Source of the DNA: Candidatus Jettenia sp. AMX2
GTDB lineage: Bacteria > Planctomycetota > Brocadiia > Brocadiales > Brocadiaceae
DNA: 64,000 bases
Direction: 5' to 3'
NCBI GenBank assembly: GCA_030583665.1
Contig: CP129469.1
Coordinates: 744,001 to 808,000, forward strand
Shown here in pieces: positions 4,896 to 46,588 of the stretch. Each line of letters opens with the position of its first letter. Within the stretch, counting starts at the first letter, position 1. A program made the translations under genes and the position numbers. Under the pieces are notes generated by a model, which searched no databases, was not told the DNA's origin, and worked only from the letters and a program-made list of their open reading frames with translations.

Positions 4896-5557
4896 ATGTT
4901 CATTTTTCTTGACGAATCAGGCGATCTTGGTTTTGACTTTAAAAAGAGAAAAACAACTAAGAAGTTTGTTATTACGCTTTTAGTCTGCGTGTCTGATGAA
5001 ACACGACATGAATTTACTAAATCCATCAGACGTACTCTCAAAAACAAATTGAACCGTAAAAAGAATAATTCACGACATGTAACAGAACTTAAAGGAACAG
5101 GCACTACTATTGATATTAAGAAATACTTTTCAGGAATATAAAAAGTAATAAGTGGGCTATTTATTCATTAGTACTCAATAAGGTTCGTGTGGAATCACGT
5201 CTTCAGACAAAGACCGGCAAGAAGAAACTTTATAATTTTTTATCCAGAGTTTTATTGGAAAAATTAAACCTGCATAATGCCAGGAGAAATGTCGAGTTGG
5301 TAGTAGATAGATGTAAAAATAAGGAAGAGGTATGGGATTTTAATCTCTATTTAATTAATCAGCTTGAAGCGCTATTACCTCTGAATACAATTTTAAATAT
5401 ATCGCATCTTACATCGCAGGAAAGCGCAGGATTACAGGCAGTTGATTTGTTTAGTTGAGGTATTTACCGAAAGTACGAAGCTAATGACTATGCATGTTAT
5501 ACCATTTACCAACATAAGATTAGATTTGAAACCGAATATTTACCTTGAGAAAGAATG
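4896..5557 (+). pseudogene. DUF3800-domain protein, broken by a frameshift and a TGA
   Basis: The first frame (4896-5141) starts MFIFLDESGD, the acidic N-terminal motif of DUF3800, an RNase H-like fold family common near restriction and mobile loci. Around 5130 the reading frame moves: the second frame runs through KWAIYSLVLNKVRVESR with no start codon needed, up to AVDLFS at 5455. An in-frame TGA there replaces what is normally Trp, and the same frame continues GIYRKYEANDYACYTIYQ to a second stop near 5557. With one base corrected and TGA read as Trp, a full-length protein of about 220 residues would result. It lies between mod and res, so it probably belonged to the restriction locus. I regard it as dead unless the two lesions are sequencing errors. 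Confidence 0.8.
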
Positions 5558-5562
5558 CGGCC

Positions 5563-5630
5563 CCTGCAATGCCCATTTCCTCTGGTTCATAGCCAACCGA
5601 TGGAAGGAAGCGCCAGAGGCACATTGCAGG
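5563..5630. repeat. Inverted repeat or hairpin between the DUF3800 remnant and res
   Basis: CCTGCAATG at 5563-5571 pairs with CATTGCAGG at 5622-5630, and an inner CCTCTGG pairs with CCAGAGG at 5613-5619, enclosing about 35 bases. No T tract follows, so a simple intrinsic terminator is unlikely. It may be a dispersed palindromic repeat or an RNA structure in the leader of res. Confidence 0.55.
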
Positions 5631-5757
5631 ATTTACCCGCCTATATTTTGTGTTTTTAGAATATCAAAGTCTGGCTTTTTTGTCAAAACTTATTTTAACA
5701 CTTTTTGTTTGTTACAAGACCCAAGTCTTGCAATGATTAGATAAAGACCCTTGCAAG

Positions 5758-18275: not shown

Positions 18276-18345
18276 TACCGCATCAGTTTGAATTGGTAAT
18301 TCTGTTGCGCTTCTGTTTCCAAGCTGAACCGCAGCGTTATTCCTG
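18268..18345 (+). repeat. Degenerate attC-like site
   Basis: It starts at the stop of the DUF262 gene with GGCTAATACCGCAT and ends with GCGTTAT. The inside (GGTAATTCTGTTGCGCTTCTG) is clearly similar to the much better attC-like site at 33,881. The stem is weak and partly G-U, so the site is probably decayed. Confidence 0.5.
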
Positions 18346-18352
18346 AAAATCC

Positions 18353-18388
18353 TTGCAAAACTTATGGTATTGTATATAATACCACATT
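18353..18388 (+). promoter_or_regulatory. Promoter and operator of the PIN/CopG pair; mRNA probably leaderless
   Basis: TTGCAA at 18353-18358 and TATAAT at 18375-18380 are 16 bases apart. The ATG of the PIN gene is at 18389, so transcription would begin within a couple of bases of the start codon. An inverted repeat TGGTATT-6-AATACCA covers the -10 element, as expected for autorepression by the antitoxin. Confidence 0.65.
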
Positions 18389-18808
18389 ATGAGGATTGTG
18401 ATTGATACCAATGTGTTGTATTCAGCTCTCAAATCTAAGAGAGGTGCATCATACAGATTAATTTCACAATTGCAATGTAATACTTTTCAAATAATGCTTT
18501 CTATTCCGTTATATGTAGAATATCAGGAGGTTTTATTAAAAGGAAAACTTTTAGAAAGATATTCAAAGCAAGAAATATTAGGATTTCTAAGGTATTTTTG
18601 TAAAATTTGCACCCATCAAGAGATTTTCTATTTATGGAGACCGGTTTTAAAAGACCAAAAAGATGATATGGTCTTGGAGCTGGCAGTAGCAGGTAATTGT
18701 GATTACATTATTACTTACAATATTAAACATTTTAAGGGTTTGGAACAATTTAAACCAAAACCAATAACACCGAAAGAATTTATTGGATTGCAAGGAGGTT
18801 TACTATGA
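18389..18808 (+). CDS. PIN-domain toxin (toxin-antitoxin)
   Basis: 139-residue PIN ribonuclease of the family annotated as putative toxin-antitoxin toxin component. Acidic metal-binding positions are in MRIVIDTNVLYSAL (Asp6), in KDDMVLELA and in NCDYIITYN (Asp). VapC-like relatives cleave tRNA or rRNA. Its stop overlaps the antitoxin start (ATGA), so the pair is co-translated, with toxin first. The mRNA seems leaderless. Frame intact. Confidence 0.85.
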   Translation: MRIVIDTNVLYSALKSKRGASYRLISQLQCNTFQIMLSIPLYVEYQEVLLKGKLLERYSKQEILGFLRYFCKICTHQEIFYLWRPVLKDQKDDMVLELAVAGNCDYIITYNIKHFKGLEQFKPKPITPKEFIGLQGGLL

Positions 18809-19050
18809 GTACTTTGAGTGTGAGATTACCGGAATCTCTACATAAAAAAATAAAGAAAATTGCTAAAGAAGAAAAGATTTCTATTAACCAGTTCATAAGT
18901 AGTGCAGCAGCCGAAAAGATCTCTGCCATTATGACCGTAGATTATTTAAAAAGAGAGGCTAAATTAGGAAAGAGGAAAGATTTTGAAACAATATTAAAAA
19001 AAGTACCAGATGTTGAACCAGAACCGTACGATAGATTAACTAAGTCATAA
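18805..19050 (+). CDS. CopG/RHH-type antitoxin
   Basis: 81 residues. The N-terminus LSVRLPESLHKKIKKIAKEEKISINQFISSAAAEKISAI is a ribbon-helix-helix DNA-binding domain, and the acidic C-terminal tail (KKVPDVEPEPYD) is the likely toxin-neutralising part. A strong AGGAGG lies just upstream inside the toxin gene, which would give more antitoxin than toxin. It probably binds the palindrome over the promoter at 18365-18384. Confidence 0.85.
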   Translation: MSTLSVRLPESLHKKIKKIAKEEKISINQFISSAAAEKISAIMTVDYLKREAKLGKRKDFETILKKVPDVEPEPYDRLTKS

Positions 19051-19214
19051 CAAATCGCTCCACCTGATCGTTATTCTGTATTTAGTAGATGGTTATTGGT
19101 TTTACGAAAAACAGGCTGAAGGAGTTGTCACATATTTTTGGACTCTCTTTTTTCGGATATAGACTCTTTGATTATCCATGCTGGTATTCATCCCTTACAT
19201 TTTGCAAAATACCA

Positions 19215-19307
19215 CGTATGCTATCAAAACGATTTCCCTTTGATGTTTACTATCGTGTTGTGAATAAAACAGCGCTTGTATCTGAAGTTCCCGATTGTTT
19301 TGAATAA
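19215..19307 (+). pseudogene. ParE/RelE-type toxin C-terminal remnant
   Basis: The end of a short ORF reads LSKRFPFDVYYRVVNKTALVSEV, matching the core strand of ParE/RelE toxins (RFPF-YYR). The usual upstream helices and a start with an antitoxin are absent. The rest of 19,051-19,520 shows no gene. Confidence 0.5.
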
Positions 19308-19520
19308 AAGAGGTCATGGTGTCCAAAGCCCGATCGATGGGTTTCAGGCCAGATTATACAGTCTGTATAATCTGGAATGGGCAATGAGATAAAAACACAT
19401 AAAGGCTTTATAAAAAATAAGTTACAATGAGCGACAAGAAGGCACGGCAACTTCTTATACTGGGAGATTCATACTGTGTTTGCTGTTTTATGCAGATTAT
19501 ATAATCATTGTTAGCCATGA

Positions 19521-20716
19521 ATGAAACCTATGAATGACAACATCGGAAAAGGGACCGAATTCGAAAACATCTGCTTGAGTACTCTCAAGCGGCTTGGCTT
19601 CGAGGAGCTTCAACTTACTAAGAGGGTAAATGATCAGGGGGCGGATTGGGTGGGGAGCTTTGAGGGCACTAGGTATTTGTTTCAATGCAAGAAACACAAA
19701 AAGAAGCAGGGTAACAGGGCAATTCAGGAGGCAATCGCGGCAAAGACATATTACAAAGCATCTCGCTGCGCCGTAATATCAGAAAGCGGTTACACCAAGT
19801 CTGCATATCAACTTGCACGTCCAAACTATTGTCTTTTGCTCATGCCATTAGAAATAACGGAAGCCGTGAATTCTCAGAAGACCTTCGCCGAGCTAATAAA
19901 GAATTACACATTCCCTGTAAACTCTCCGATAGAGCACGATTACGACTTAATCAAACGATACGAACAAATAAAGGCCCAAATTGGTCATACTCCGAGAAAC
20001 AAAGACCTTGATCCGACGACCCGTTACCGTATCAAGAAGAAGTACGGCAGCCTTTCCAGTCTCATTAGACAGCTTAGCGATAGCCCCTTCACAAGGAGGC
20101 CTTCGAACGAAGAGATTAGGAAAGAATACAAACGAGTTAAACAAGCTATTGGGAAGACGCCGACTCTTGCTAACATGCAGAAGCAGTCAAACTTCTCCAG
20201 AAATTGTTTCTCCAGTTACCCATTTACGAAACTGCAGGAGGAATGCGGTGACGCTCCGAATATTCAGAGAGGAGTATCCAAGGAGGACTTGATTAGCGCC
20301 TTCGACAGACTTCGCCGAGAGTTGGGAAGGATACCTTCCATCAAAGATCTGGATGAAAAGGGTGTTTACCGATCAAGTTACTACAGAACTCGATGGGGAA
20401 ATATTGATACGTTTCTCAAAGATCTTGGGATCCCCCAACGAGAGTTCAAGCAAAGGCAGTACGATGAGCGCGAACTAATATTGATCTATCTCCTGTTGAA
20501 AAAGGCTTTTGAAATCCGCAATGATGATGACAGTCTCACGCTAAACCATACTGTTTTAGAGAATCTGAAATACAAGGGAAAGGTCTTTGTTTCACCGGGG
20601 ATATTCAGTTCACGTTTTGGGGCTGGGGAGAATTCATGAAATGCCTTGACCGTGATTTGGCGTCACAGGTAGCACAGGCACTAGATGAGATCATTGACAA
20701 GTTTGCAGAAAAGTAG
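19521..20716 (+). pseudogene. Mrr-type nuclease with HNH-associated repeats, frameshifted near the 3' end
   Basis: The N-terminal 130 residues form a Mrr-like restriction nuclease (GTEFENICLSTLKRLGF, QGADWVG with Asp, YLFQCKKHKK with QxK). Then come three or more repeats of about 60 residues of the type LIKRYEQIKAQIGHTPRNKDLD, seen as homing-endonuclease-associated (HNH_repeat) modules thought to bind DNA. The frame closes at 20639 (FGAGENS) because of a G4 run at 20619-20622. With one base changed it continues GWGEFMKCLDRDLASQVAQAL to TAG at 20714-20716, the natural end. An attC-like site begins three bases later. Probably a restriction enzyme cassette; a real frameshift or a sequencing error are both possible. 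Confidence 0.8.
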
Positions 20717-20718
20717 AA

Positions 20719-20780
20719 TGGCTAACAATGGGTTCAACTTGACCGTCGCTTACACACCGGCAAGTTAACCCGGCCGATGG
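20719..20780 (+). repeat. attC-like site after the Mrr/HNH-repeat gene
   Basis: GGCTAACAATG opens the site. GGGTT-C-AACTTG-A-CCG (20730-20745) pairs perfectly with CGG-CAAGTT-AACCC (20758-20771) when one C and one A are left unpaired, exactly the extrahelical-base arrangement of integron attC hairpins. The closing GTTRRRY box is missing or degenerate (CCGATGGC), so it may no longer recombine. Confidence 0.65.
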
Positions 20781-20905
20781 CGCAGAATGTATTGTCTTCC
20801 AGTGTTTTTGATTATTGTTTTGCGTGACTCAATGATACACGAAAGCCTTATGTGGTGGAGCAGACCGTCACAAGCGTGTTTGGAGTTCCCCAGGATGGAG
20901 AAATT

Positions 20906-20957
20906 GGGGACAGGCTGCTTTTTCAAATTCCCTGGATGTTGGAGAATTAGCCTGTCC
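20906..20957. repeat. REP-like palindrome (GGACAGGCT...AGCCTGTCC)
   Basis: GGACAGGCT at 20908-20916 pairs with AGCCTGTCC at 20949-20957 around a TTTTTCAAATT loop. This GGGGACAGGCT...TTTTTCAA pattern resembles repeats linked to REP-associated transposases, but no such transposase is in the window. Confidence 0.6.
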
Positions 20958-21003
20958 TTATTTCCCGGAAATCAAAGGTATGCATCATCTTTGCAGCCTA
21001 ACT

Positions 21004-21173
21004 GATTTATAACAATTCGAAGATGAAACAAAACAAAATGAACCATGATTTGTTTACACAATCGCGGACAAACAATCCCTTCCCCATTTCCATGAGGACA
21101 AGGTTCAACACATACAGGGACATGGTTTGTCCGTGCCGCGTTATCTAAAATACTGTCCGGTTTCATCACTTGA
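21004..21173. repeat. MITE-like repeat, copy 1
   Basis: Begins GATTTATAACAATTCGAAG and ends CTGTCCGGTTTCATCACTTGA. The ends form an imperfect inverted repeat (TTC...GATGAAAC). An inner pair CGGACAAAC/GTTTGTCCG makes it strongly palindromic. Both ends, but not the middle, recur at 24,355-24,543. It sits just before the cytosine deaminase gene. Confidence 0.65.
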
Positions 21174-21206
21174 ATACTATATAGATACTTATATGGAGGA
21201 AAAGAT

Positions 21207-21644
21207 ATGGATGAATTTCTTGAGGCGGCGATTGAGGAAGCGAAAAAGGGACTGGCCGAAGGCGGTATTCCGATTGGCTCGGTACTGGTAATTGACGGAC
21301 AAATCGTTGGCCGGGGACACAACCGCCGCGTACAGAAGGGGAGTGCGGTGCTGCACGCTGAAATGGATTGTCTGGAGAATGCCGGTCGTCTTAAAGCATC
21401 CGATTACCGCCGGGGAATTTTGTACTCCACACTGTCCCCTTGTGATATGTGCAGCGGCGCTGCACTGCTATATGGGATTCCAAAGGTCGTTATTGGAGAG
21501 AACCGTACTTTTCGGGGACCGGAGGATTACCTGAAGTCCCGTGGAATACAGACCGTTGTCGTCGATAACCAGGAGTGCCAACAGCTTATGAGGAAGTTTA
21601 TCAATGAGTATCCGGATCTCTGGAATGAGGATATTGGCAGATAG
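21207..21644 (+). CDS. Cytosine deaminase, Fcy1-type
   Basis: 145-residue zinc-dependent nucleobase deaminase that would convert cytosine to uracil in pyrimidine salvage. Zinc ligands and catalytic Glu are in HAEMD (His50, Glu52) and SPCDMCSG (Cys79, Cys82). The sequence around YGIPKVVIGENRTFRG and the C-terminal WNEDIGR follow the yeast Fcy1 pattern rather than the E. coli CodA amidohydrolase or the tRNA deaminase TadA (which has PCxxC but a different C-terminus). Preceded by GGAGG. A fragment of a second copy lies at 30,353-30,406, so this gene was duplicated or exchanged. Intact. Confidence 0.85.
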   Translation: MDEFLEAAIEEAKKGLAEGGIPIGSVLVIDGQIVGRGHNRRVQKGSAVLHAEMDCLENAGRLKASDYRRGILYSTLSPCDMCSGAALLYGIPKVVIGENRTFRGPEDYLKSRGIQTVVVDNQECQQLMRKFINEYPDLWNEDIGR

Positions 21645-24269: not shown

Positions 24270-24354
24270 AATCAAATGGCTACTAAGACGCTGCACCTTA
24301 CTGCTTTTCCGCTGGCGCTTTTGCAAAGGTATGCGATATTTTCGCAGTATAATT

Positions 24355-24543
24355 GATTTATAATAATTCGAAGACGAAACCAAACAAAATGAACCATGAA
24401 TTATTTATACAATCATAGACAAACAGTCTTTTGGAGATAAAGATAAAACCAGAGTAAAAGTTTTACTTTATCTTTATCACTCACTCCGAAGGGTTGTTCG
24501 TCCGTGCCACCCTATCTAAAATACTGTCCGGTTTCATCTCTTG
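24355..24543. repeat. MITE-like repeat, copy 2
   Basis: GATTTATAATAATTCGAAG at the start and CTGTCCGGTTTCATCTCTTGA at the end match the element at 21,004-21,173. The central part differs and contains its own inverted repeat (GATAAAGATAAAA with TTTTACTTTATCTTTATC, about 24,439-24,478). The two copies flank the deaminase and TPR genes. Confidence 0.65.
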
Positions 24544-24667
24544 ACAGGCTGTCCGAGGATGTTTTCACGCGACAAATCCTATTTTATATATTGATAAAAA
24601 TGTTATTACAACAATATAGTTTCTATATTTATAGGTAAGACAGGTATTTGTCTGTCAGACAATTAGT

Positions 24668-33640: not shown

Positions 33641-33858
33641 AAAAATCAATCGTCAAAGTGCAAAGCTCTCTTTATACCACTGACACTGCTCAAAAGATGC
33701 TGGTCTATAATGAAGACAGAAGCATTAACTACGAGGCAGATTTAACAGAAGAGGTAAAAAAGGTGCTTTTAGGCAGACCCAAAGCATATTTTGAGTTTAC
33801 CTTGACTGAAAACAAGGAGATTCGTCTTGGAAAAGAAGTCGCACCTCAAAATTGGTGA
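33637..33858 (+). CDS. Small protein of unknown function (73 aa)
   Basis: 73 residues with no known family: MKKSIVKVQSSLYTTDTAQKM, YNEDRSINYEADLTEEVKKVLLGRPKAYF. Mildly acidic, no membrane segment. Translation is coupled to the preceding gene by ATGA overlap. The stop lies about 25 bp before an attC-like site. Plausible antitoxin or immunity partner, by arrangement only. Confidence 0.6.
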   Translation: MKKSIVKVQSSLYTTDTAQKMLVYNEDRSINYEADLTEEVKKVLLGRPKAYFEFTLTENKEIRLGKEVAPQNW

Positions 33859-33880
33859 TTATAAAGACAATAAAGGCGGC

Positions 33881-33955
33881 ACCTAACAACCGCATGAACT
33901 CGGACTGGCAATTCCGCTGCGCTTTATTGCCAGCCGGTTATGCGGAATGTTATAC
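33881..33955 (+). repeat. attC-like recombination site, well formed
   Basis: Opens with ACCTAAC (fits RYYYAAC) and closes with GTTATAC. CCGCAT-G-AAC-T-CGG-A-CTGGCAAT (33,890-33,912) pairs base for base with ATTGCCAG-CCG-GTT-ATGCGG (33,926-33,945) if the three bases G, T and A are unpaired. Conserved unpaired bases on one arm are the defining structure of integron attC sites. The best of the sites in the window. Confidence 0.75.
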
Positions 33956-33977
33956 CTTATTAGCGGACTCACAAAAG

Positions 33978-34733
33978 ATGAGTAATGCAAAAAGTAATGC
34001 AATAAAAGGTAGAGAAGATATTTCGAGGTTTGTCGTGCACCTGACCCGTGATGATACTTCGGACTTCACCGATGGTGGAACAGCCGAAGACAATTTTAGT
34101 GCAATTATCGAGGATAGAAGGATTGGTGCTTATCAACCCCATTGTATACATTCAAATGAAATACCCAAAGATCTACGAAAACGTTATTCAGTAACATGTT
34201 TTACAGAAGTGCCTCTGACCCAGCTTGGCTTACTTACTCGAAAAATACCTGGACGTAAGGTTTTCCTTGAACCTTATGGGTTTGTTTTTTCGAGGGAATT
34301 CATTATTACCAAAGGAGCGCAACCTGCTATCTACATTAATTCTTATAGTGGCAATCTTTGGTTGAGAGATGCCGCTAATAGTATTTGCAAAATTGCACGT
34401 AAGAAGGGATTCCGGAAAGGAAAGGTTTGGCGTTTTTTACCCTTTTTAAATGCAATGCATGAAAGATATGATTTTACATGGGAGAGGGAGTGGCGAGTTC
34501 GCGGGGATGTCGAGTTTAAACCATCGGATGTGGTGGCAGTTATACTTCCAGGCGGTGGTTGCAAAAAATGGCGTGAAAATTTCGCACTAAAAGGTATTCC
34601 GGTGCTCTCGCCAGGTCTTTCCTATGAGGAAATTGTTGGAGAGTTGTCATTGCAACAGAGAAAAACGAAAAGAATATGGGTCGAAAGAAAACGCCGAGCG
34701 CGTCGGTCAAAGGGAAAAGAACGGAATGTATAA
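33978..34733 (+). CDS. AbiGi-like abortive-infection family protein
   Basis: 251 residues from ATG 33978; the longer frame upstream only translates the attC site. The layout SRFVVHLTRD, DNFSAIIEDRRIGAY, then YSVTCFTEVPLTQL, GFVFSREFIITKGAQPAIYI and a later FTWEREWRVRGD fits what I know of the AbiGi family (phage-resistance protein, listed as the antitoxin of the AbiG pair) and the related DUF2971 proteins that report on a cell or DNA state. It is the first gene of an apparent operon: it overlaps the next gene by 8 bases. The assignment is by motif recall, so moderate. Confidence 0.55.
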   Translation: MSNAKSNAIKGREDISRFVVHLTRDDTSDFTDGGTAEDNFSAIIEDRRIGAYQPHCIHSNEIPKDLRKRYSVTCFTEVPLTQLGLLTRKIPGRKVFLEPYGFVFSREFIITKGAQPAIYINSYSGNLWLRDAANSICKIARKKGFRKGKVWRFLPFLNAMHERYDFTWEREWRVRGDVEFKPSDVVAVILPGGGCKKWRENFALKGIPVLSPGLSYEEIVGELSLQQRKTKRIWVERKRRARRSKGKERNV

Positions 34734-45782: not shown

Positions 45783-45822
45783 TATACGGCCCGCGGCTCC
45801 GGTTGAATCGTCTGTTAGGACA
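45783..45822 (-). repeat. Half attC-like site at the 3' end of the protease gene
   Basis: Read on the minus strand, GTCCTAACAGACGATTCAACCGGAGCC... begins inside the last codons of the protease gene: its TAA stop lies in TCCTAAC, the RYYYAAC box. The second half (GGCT-AACTC-GTTRRRY) is absent, so the site is truncated. Confidence 0.5.
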
Positions 45823-46531
45823 CCGGCGCTGGCAGTTGTGCTCCAATAGGATTCACGTTGATCAAATCGATCGCATACTCAATTGAGTATGCAACGACGA
45901 TTCCAGTATTGTATCGTATTTCGAGCGGAGTCTCTTTCCCATTGAGAAAGACTTTCTCCCATTCAAATCTATAGCTGGAAACAACACCAGCCACGCAGAT
46001 TTTACGGGGGCTACTCGGAGGCGAAAATACAACAGGTCCTCCCGAGAAACCTGGGTTGTTATGCCCATCCAAAAGAAAGTACTTGTCACTGCCTGAGTCG
46101 AGAGCAAGCAGTGATATACACGCCTTTTTTACGAGAGGCAGCGGAAACTGCGCGTTCAGATGGCCAACGTCTGCCTGCAATCCGTACGGAAATCCAAGAA
46201 AGTACGCGTCTTGGCTTAGAAGCATTCCGTTGGTTGAGGGTTCAAACGAATAAGTTGGAGAAATCTGGCAAGCTGGGGCAAGAACCGCGATATCAACATC
46301 GCCAGATGTTGCGCCAACGTAGTAACAAGACAAGTCCTTCCATTGTCCATCGTGAAAGATCTGAATGGTAAATCTCTCAGCTGCACCTTGCACGACATGC
46401 CGGGCGGTGACCAAATACTGTCTTGAATCACGATCGATCGTAAAGCACGTACCACTATTGGTGCCATACTTGAGGTGAAATGTTCGTTGAAGTGCATTCG
46501 AAGGTACCACTGATCTATCTCCCTTTGGCAA
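45815..46531 (-). CDS. Trypsin-like serine protease (intracellular)
   Basis: Up to 238 residues; the frame opens with TTG at 46531, but GTG at 46510 has the better ribosome-binding site (AGGGAG). The chymotrypsin-fold catalytic triad is visible: YLVTARHVV (His45), GDVDIAVLAP (Asp80) and NNPGFSGGPVVF (Ser163). No signal peptide or membrane segment, so it acts in the cytoplasm; proteases of this kind occur as phage-defence effectors. It is bracketed on both sides by attC-like sequences, as in a gene cassette. Intact. Confidence 0.85.
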   Translation of the reverse strand: MPKGDRSVVPSNALQRTFHLKYGTNSGTCFTIDRDSRQYLVTARHVVQGAAERFTIQIFHDGQWKDLSCYYVGATSGDVDIAVLAPACQISPTYSFEPSTNGMLLSQDAYFLGFPYGLQADVGHLNAQFPLPLVKKACISLLALDSGSDKYFLLDGHNNPGFSGGPVVFSPPSSPRKICVAGVVSSYRFEWEKVFLNGKETPLEIRYNTGIVVAYSIEYAIDLINVNPIGAQLPAPVS

Positions 46532-46588
46532 CTAACGTCTCAACCGTGCGGTGGCTATCAGCCATCCGCACGAGTGATTTGTTATGGG
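46530..46588 (-). repeat. attC-like site between toxin and protease genes
   Basis: On the minus strand it runs from CCATAACAAATCAC to ACGTTAGTTG. The central stem CGTGCGG-A-TGGCT pairs with AGCCACCGCACG with one unpaired A, and the outer boxes AACAAA and GTTAG are attC-like. It lies 5 bases past the toxin stop and just before the protease start, as expected for a cassette boundary. Confidence 0.6.

Follow-up and report, generated by a model that had tools for sequence, protein, structure and literature searches.

A nuclease gene cassette in an attI platform that has lost almost all of its integrase gene: a very probable integron remnant in Candidatus Jettenia sp. AMX2

Integrons in which the attI site lies directly downstream of the 3' end of intI, and in which the cassettes run in the same direction as intI, have been described for Treponema (PMC3607928), and the archaeal integrons, as presented in PMC9668308, likewise have their attI directly downstream of intI, where it is semi-conserved across archaeal phyla. 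Little has been described of attI sites other than those of class 1, according to PMC9024848. The locus reported here lies in a window of 64,000 nucleotides, the whole stretch of DNA that was analyzed (positions 744,001 to 808,000 of contig CP129469.1; positions below are those of the window). It has the same intI-to-attI orientation as the Treponema type of PMC3607928, but only 16 codons of its intI are left and the host is a Brocadiaceae-type planctomycete. The family to which it belongs resembles the archaeal integrons, as PMC9668308 describes them, in the position of the attI and in being shared across phyla; that paper names a cassette of AP021856, the genome of Brocadia pituitae, in which we found the attI core of the window type (L140). 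CALIN and single-attC relics, in the terms of IntegronFinder, likewise have an attC without a nearby integrase, but none of the categories CALIN, In0 and complete integron, as set out in PMC9024848, describes an attI with a cassette and without intI, whereas the window has an attI. More specifically, CALIN hold two or more clustered attCs without intI, whereas the attC discussed here is single, the next one on the same strand starting at 33881, 13 kb off; and a complete integron has an intact intI adjoining its attI, of which 16 IntI residues are left here. Cassette insertions at attG sites and at secondary sites of IntI (Loot et al. 2024 as cited in PMC12901181; PMC10127599) share the G^AT type of right junction, whereas the left junction in the window is a true attI. 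No papers on integrase-less attI platforms were found in the literature searched, which was mainly open-access.

We consider it very likely (probability around 0.92) that the locus is an integron remnant, in which IntI captured a nuclease cassette at attI and in which intI was later lost and the right side replaced. The Mrr/HNH-repeat cassette sits in an attI platform whose intI is almost wholly lost. The original prediction concerned the hairpin behind the nuclease gene; the attI on the left of that gene was not part of it.

The attI came to light when window 19050-21250 was compared with 39 related genomes: the comparison returned a repeat that extends from window 19296 to about 19513 and of which the own and the related genomes hold dozens of copies. 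The attI region (19296..19510, + strand) runs from the intI tail to the crossover; its copies are 71-78% identical and end at the same G^TT, and the partner alignments of the window copy start at 19296. Of 65 matches, 41 copies remained once thirteen duplicate loci, exact repeats and matches short of the crossover had been taken out. With the exception of a small number of rows that are divergent or misaligned, these 41 distinct copies are alike up to ...TATAATCATTG^TT and then continue into unrelated genes or first cassettes. The 27-bp core (19486..19512, +), which comprises a TATAAT box and the crossover G19510^T19511, was found at 50 places in 19 of the 39 genomes when up to 3 mismatches were allowed, and at 0 places with the reversed control; the window copy has 3 mismatches to the family core. 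Its 7-mer GTTAGCC fits GTTRRRY at 6 of the 7 positions (C at the third R). A consensus sigma-70 promoter scan of the attI found 0 promoters (shuffles 1.2); the TATAAT box presumably drives the nuclease gene.

At the left end of this region tblastn recognized the 3'-terminal 16 codons of an intI gene (19297..19344, +; IntI residues 300-315, the rest being absent). The match is weak (68.8% identity, E 8e-4) and ends 166 bp before the crossover, as it does in the other copies. In the related locus L116 the distance from the end of a complete IntI (315/315 residues, 85%) to the same crossover is likewise 166 bp, which places the attI downstream of intI, and an attC with exactly matching ends follows 1040 bp downstream. 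A crossover beside intI with a common left part and differing right parts is what identifies an attI, and this is the arrangement that was found. Between the intI tail and the attI core lies a 27-bp palindrome, CCAGATTATACAG-T-CTGTATAATCTGG (19349..19375), the core of which, TTATACAGTCTGTATAA, occurs with 0 mismatches at 19354-19370 and with 3 in a second copy at 19488-19504. On the other side, at about 19296-19298, the intI tail is fused to what is left of a second gene (19080..19298, +; sequence match), the end of which, from our reading of the sequence, presumably resembles a ParE/RelE-type toxin. A counterpart of this toxin-gene relic with 87% identity stands at G011:C20:31613-31833 (= L205:4614-4834), without an attI behind it. 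The toxin-antitoxin pair that precedes the relic is matched in part, within 18335-19078 and at 84-91% identity, in three genomes (G003, G005 and G001), each time in other surroundings; no match extends beyond 19078, and the window sequence does not resume after it. Among the relatives none with an empty site was found and none carries the nuclease-attI platform. The locus has the mosaic composition that one would expect where cassettes are captured.

The right end of the cassette is formed by an attC site (20720..20776, +), which was recognized by folding and by a covariance model. IntI cleaves the folded bottom strand of attC hairpins and uses bulged bases as landmarks. The left part consists of the R'' box GGCTAAC (20720-20726), AAT, GGGTT (20730-20734), a bulged C (20735), AACTTG (20736-20741), a bulged A (20742) and CCG (20743-20745), followed by a loop of 12 nt; the right arm reads CGG (20758-20760), CAAGTT (20761-20766), AACCC (20767-20771), GGCC and G 20776. 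The stem register is therefore 5/1/6/1/3, that is 5 bp, bulged C, 6 bp, bulged A and 3 bp. On the bottom strand, the two bulged bases presumably correspond to the G and T by which IntI recognizes the site. The attC-like stem with two extrahelical bases that was originally predicted, perfect when C and A are bulged, is present and lies one base further to the right. The R'' box fits the consensus RYYYAAC at 6 of 7 positions (G in place of Y) and recurs in L026, L037 and L046.

The hairpin is the minimum of DNA folding of the site, and its fold energy is unremarkable by itself (z -1.14; 24 of 200 shuffles were equally stable). The attC covariance search that had been proposed as a check was done with a model, R2, made from nine attCs that were drawn from the first cassettes of related loci, independently of the window and with the window excluded. 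It gave 32.6 bits at 20720-20782 (+), rank 2 of 19 in the whole window with filters off, and an E-value of 1.7e-6; the E-values are rough, and the model is biased towards the 5/1/6/1/3 register of the window hairpin, for which its nine members were picked. The best background in the window, the third-ranked match, scored 15 bits. The alignment behind R2 (A3, from which L066 was omitted for a spacer one base shorter) showed covariation: 10 of 17 pairs were altered on both sides, 91.5% of the cells were paired, both-side changes occurred in 31 cells versus 9.7 in shuffles, and the covariation score was matched by 0 of 500 shuffles. A genome scan with R2 returned 34 matches at E<=10, of which 24 at E<0.01, with the window attC on rank 17. 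The window hairpin thus combines imperfect pairing, extrahelical bases and a conserved structure, and judged by its sequence it is an attC integron recombination site and an ordinary member of its kind. An Rfam search of the window gave no attC match, plain R''/R' regular-expression scans miss the site because its R' is non-canonical, and a strict attC-like pattern had no match in viral contigs. One further sequence pattern was uninformative (12 and 18 control matches exceeding the real 2 and 4), and another model, R1, built on a MAFFT alignment, came without any base pairs and was dropped.

Other elements were encountered in the window. The top R2 match with filters off is a second strong attC at 46530-46587 (-) with 33.8 bits and R' GTTAGTT; it lies directly before the frame 45815-46531 (-), which we take, from reading the sequence only, to encode a trypsin-like protease, and no attI core was seen beside it. 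A third attC (33881-33955, +) scored 28.0 bits with default filters, was partial (13.8 bits) with filters off and is absent from the genome-scan list. The frame 33852-34733 contains this attC, so that its listed start is probably too early. Rfam also identified a DUF3800-V RNA at 5550-5648 (-), with 40.6 bits, above the gathering score.

Between the crossover and the G of its attC extends an integrated gene cassette of 1266 bp (19511..20776, +), which begins with TTAGCC, holds one gene and has complementary ends. Its 5' end G^TTAGCC and its own R'' GGCTAAC are complementary at every position, with 0 mismatches. As R'' and the second half of R' that pairs with it both have to be present on a circular cassette, the complementarity links the two cassette ends to each other. 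Within 30 attI-attC pairs of the family, the own 5' end and the R'' matched exactly in 17 (16 of 29 without the window), as against 6.6% of swapped pairs, and 0 of 10000 permutations reached the figure for own ends; the remaining 13 of the 30 had no exact end match. The scanned loci contain 66 distinct attI cores, and 36 of these have no R2-detected attC within 2.5 kb, which means that R2 misses many attCs or that those arrays differ.

The cassette gene (19521..20639, +; 372 aa) contains, according to Pfam, an Mrr_cat nuclease domain (residues 11-101, E 2.7e-17) and an HNH_repeat (252-304, E 9.4e-18). This listed frame stops at 20639, and the TAG at 20714-20716, three bases before R'', belongs to another frame, which up to that TAG translates to an HNH-repeat-like stretch, WGEFMKCLDRDL... 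A frameshift near 20615-20639, either real or a sequencing error in the G run near 20617-20632, is probable on the basis of these two translations. The stem had been said to follow three bases after the stop of the Mrr/HNH gene; this is right for the TAG, but for the gene it holds only with the frameshift. Homologues of the nuclease (E<=1e-20) were found in none of the other 293 of 294 Planctomycetota genomes, related loci were not found in the wider genome-contig collection and a PDB sequence search gave no match. The relatives on plasmids (167 records) were partial, with less than 60% identity and 0 covering 80%, and PADLOC reported only Mrr-like partial matches, such as ZorD. Considering its domains, the nuclease presumably restricts incoming foreign DNA. 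That the gene is a captured integron cassette, as was predicted, is strongly supported by the attC score, the matching ends, the attI on the left, the lack of homologues in 293 genomes and the lack of conserved synteny; the original prediction had named conserved synteny and a missing attC score as grounds for giving up the idea, and on both counts we found the opposite.

To the right of the attC the sequence ATGGCG (20777..20782, +) stands where TTRRRY is expected, which makes the right-hand junction G^AT, and no next cassette was recognized. The R' box GTTRRRY is thus absent from the right end, with GATGGCG in its place. The closing box had been described as lost, which is correct in as far as R' is replaced; but the second R' half belongs to the next cassette, so the missing box means that the array stops after G20776 and nothing cassette-like follows. 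Small mutations might have turned a former G^TTRRRY into this junction, which would then not stem from recombination by IntI with a GAT site, a possibility to which we give slightly less than even odds: GATGGCG can be reached from GTTAGGC-like boxes in two or three changes and the gene looks decayed, whereas a GAT in the R' position was also observed after the attC of L061 (GATAGTC), and GATGGCG after a similar hairpin in L016. In three related loci, hairpins of the form GATGGCGCG...GCCATC adjoin attCs (L016:11031-11110, L012:8700-8904, L010:4635-4800), and these possibly represent a GAT-type variant of the R boxes. Further to the right, a repeat at 20973-21173 and 24324-24544, with many copies in relatives, brackets a deaminase and TPR genes.

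To see the attI in a wider frame, an inventory of its core was made in the genome-contig collection. The exact 24-bp core occurred in 84 stretches at 85 sites, often on several contigs per genome, in records assigned to Brocadiaceae, Phycisphaerae, Desulfobacterales, Sumerlaeota, Aminicenantes, Smithella, Peptococcaceae and others; most of these records are MAGs, for which binning errors are possible. With up to 3 mismatches, 140 sites yielded 119 distinct cores after removal of exact duplicates, 17 of which were set aside for short upstream sequence. Upstream of the 102 judged cores, IntI was absent in 44 cases, partial or replaced by other weak similarity in 56, and called full in 2. One of the latter (L028) is an artefact, composed of a XerC-like 25% match and a tail, so that a real full-length IntI beside the core was found in L116 only, a count that is conditional on this core. 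In L014, L079, L128, L145 and L196 IntI ends 32 bp before the crossover. The palindrome of the attI core is repeated behind the end of intI, in the window at 19349-19375 and likewise in related loci, and the 32-bp copies look as if two palindromes had fused or recombined. Some attI copies also stand in tandem, at distances of about 0.4 to 3.4 kb (G010:C1:3077256-3084736, L153, L113, L072); R2, the scans of which covered chosen sets of 49 and 22 related loci, detected no attC between the tandem copies of L153 and L049/L064. A mobile 'attI unit' of fixed length was rejected, the left homology ends ranging from 23 to 621 bp and the partner-dependent ends varying too; one group of copies has a common left end near 255 bp.

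Because L116 alone of the 102 judged cores has a full-length IntI adjoining, orphan attI platforms could be viewed as a class of their own, characterized by two TTATACAGWCTGTATAA palindromes, a TATAAT box and CATTG^TT, present several times per genome and across phyla, and kept without an adjoining integrase, being served in trans or used as a plug-in promoter for first cassettes. We put this forward tentatively, as a view with the odds somewhat against it; the window attI would then be a decaying example. It is still less probable, and in our opinion unlikely, that the window platform is live, with a cassette that can be exchanged by a distant intact IntI and an orphan attI that is kept for capture and expression. 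The genome does carry two intI above the TIGR02249 curated cut-off and several intI fragments, ordinary first cassettes stand behind many attI copies, and the other attI cores of the genome have kept 0-1 mismatches over 27 bp without an intact intI beside them; the core in the window, in contrast, has the most mismatches of the six, its gene has a probable frameshift and the right-hand R' is missing. One full-length intI of the genome (G000:C1:1941044-1941988) has a more divergent attI (L059), and the nearest larger intI fragments among those listed lie near 881.6 kb of the genome, more than 110 kb from the window attI. The present site would seem inactive or nearly so. The earlier claim that the cassette is now fixed in place goes further than the evidence, as intact intI genes elsewhere in the genome could act in trans.

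A lone cassette inserted at a chromosomal site of the attG type, where no integron ever stood, would account for the G^AT junction, as IntI1 needs only GNT and cuts GAT in secondary sites according to PMC10127599; but the left side is no random site: it is an attI, preceded by an intI tail at the constant spacing of 166 bp, which makes such an origin very improbable. Least probable of all is that an ordinary nuclease gene is followed by a hairpin that arose by chance or serves as a terminator; this would agree with the fold z-score and the absent R' but not with the R2 score relative to its background, the presence of the family crossover at the opposite end of the gene, the exact end complementarity and the lack of a T run after the stem.

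The integron remnant therefore remains our preferred reading, even though the bare hairpin is ordinary, the right R' half is missing, the intI match is weak and 13 of the 30 pairs lack an exact end match. With the attC structure, the identity and crossover of the attI, the matching cassette ends and the intI remnant established, we infer the following order of events. The starting state would have been an integron whose intI was directed towards its attI. The IntI recombinase would have captured a circular Mrr/HNH-repeat cassette by attC x attI recombination at G19510^TT, with attI-left^[TTAGCC-gene-attC-G] as the product. A later deletion or rearrangement at about 19296 may then have cut intI to its last 16 codons and fused the toxin-gene relic on, and on the right side whatever stood after the attC would have been lost or replaced, leaving G^AT.

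It is the integrase-less attI platform, rather than the attC itself, that deserves attention. The locus provides an attI with an exact crossover and a short searchable core, by which integrase-less platforms can be found in any genome, and the complementarity of the ends within one cassette offers a strong control for deciding whether a hairpin is an attC. The locus is also an instance of a planctomycete cassette with a probable anti-invader nuclease as its cargo.
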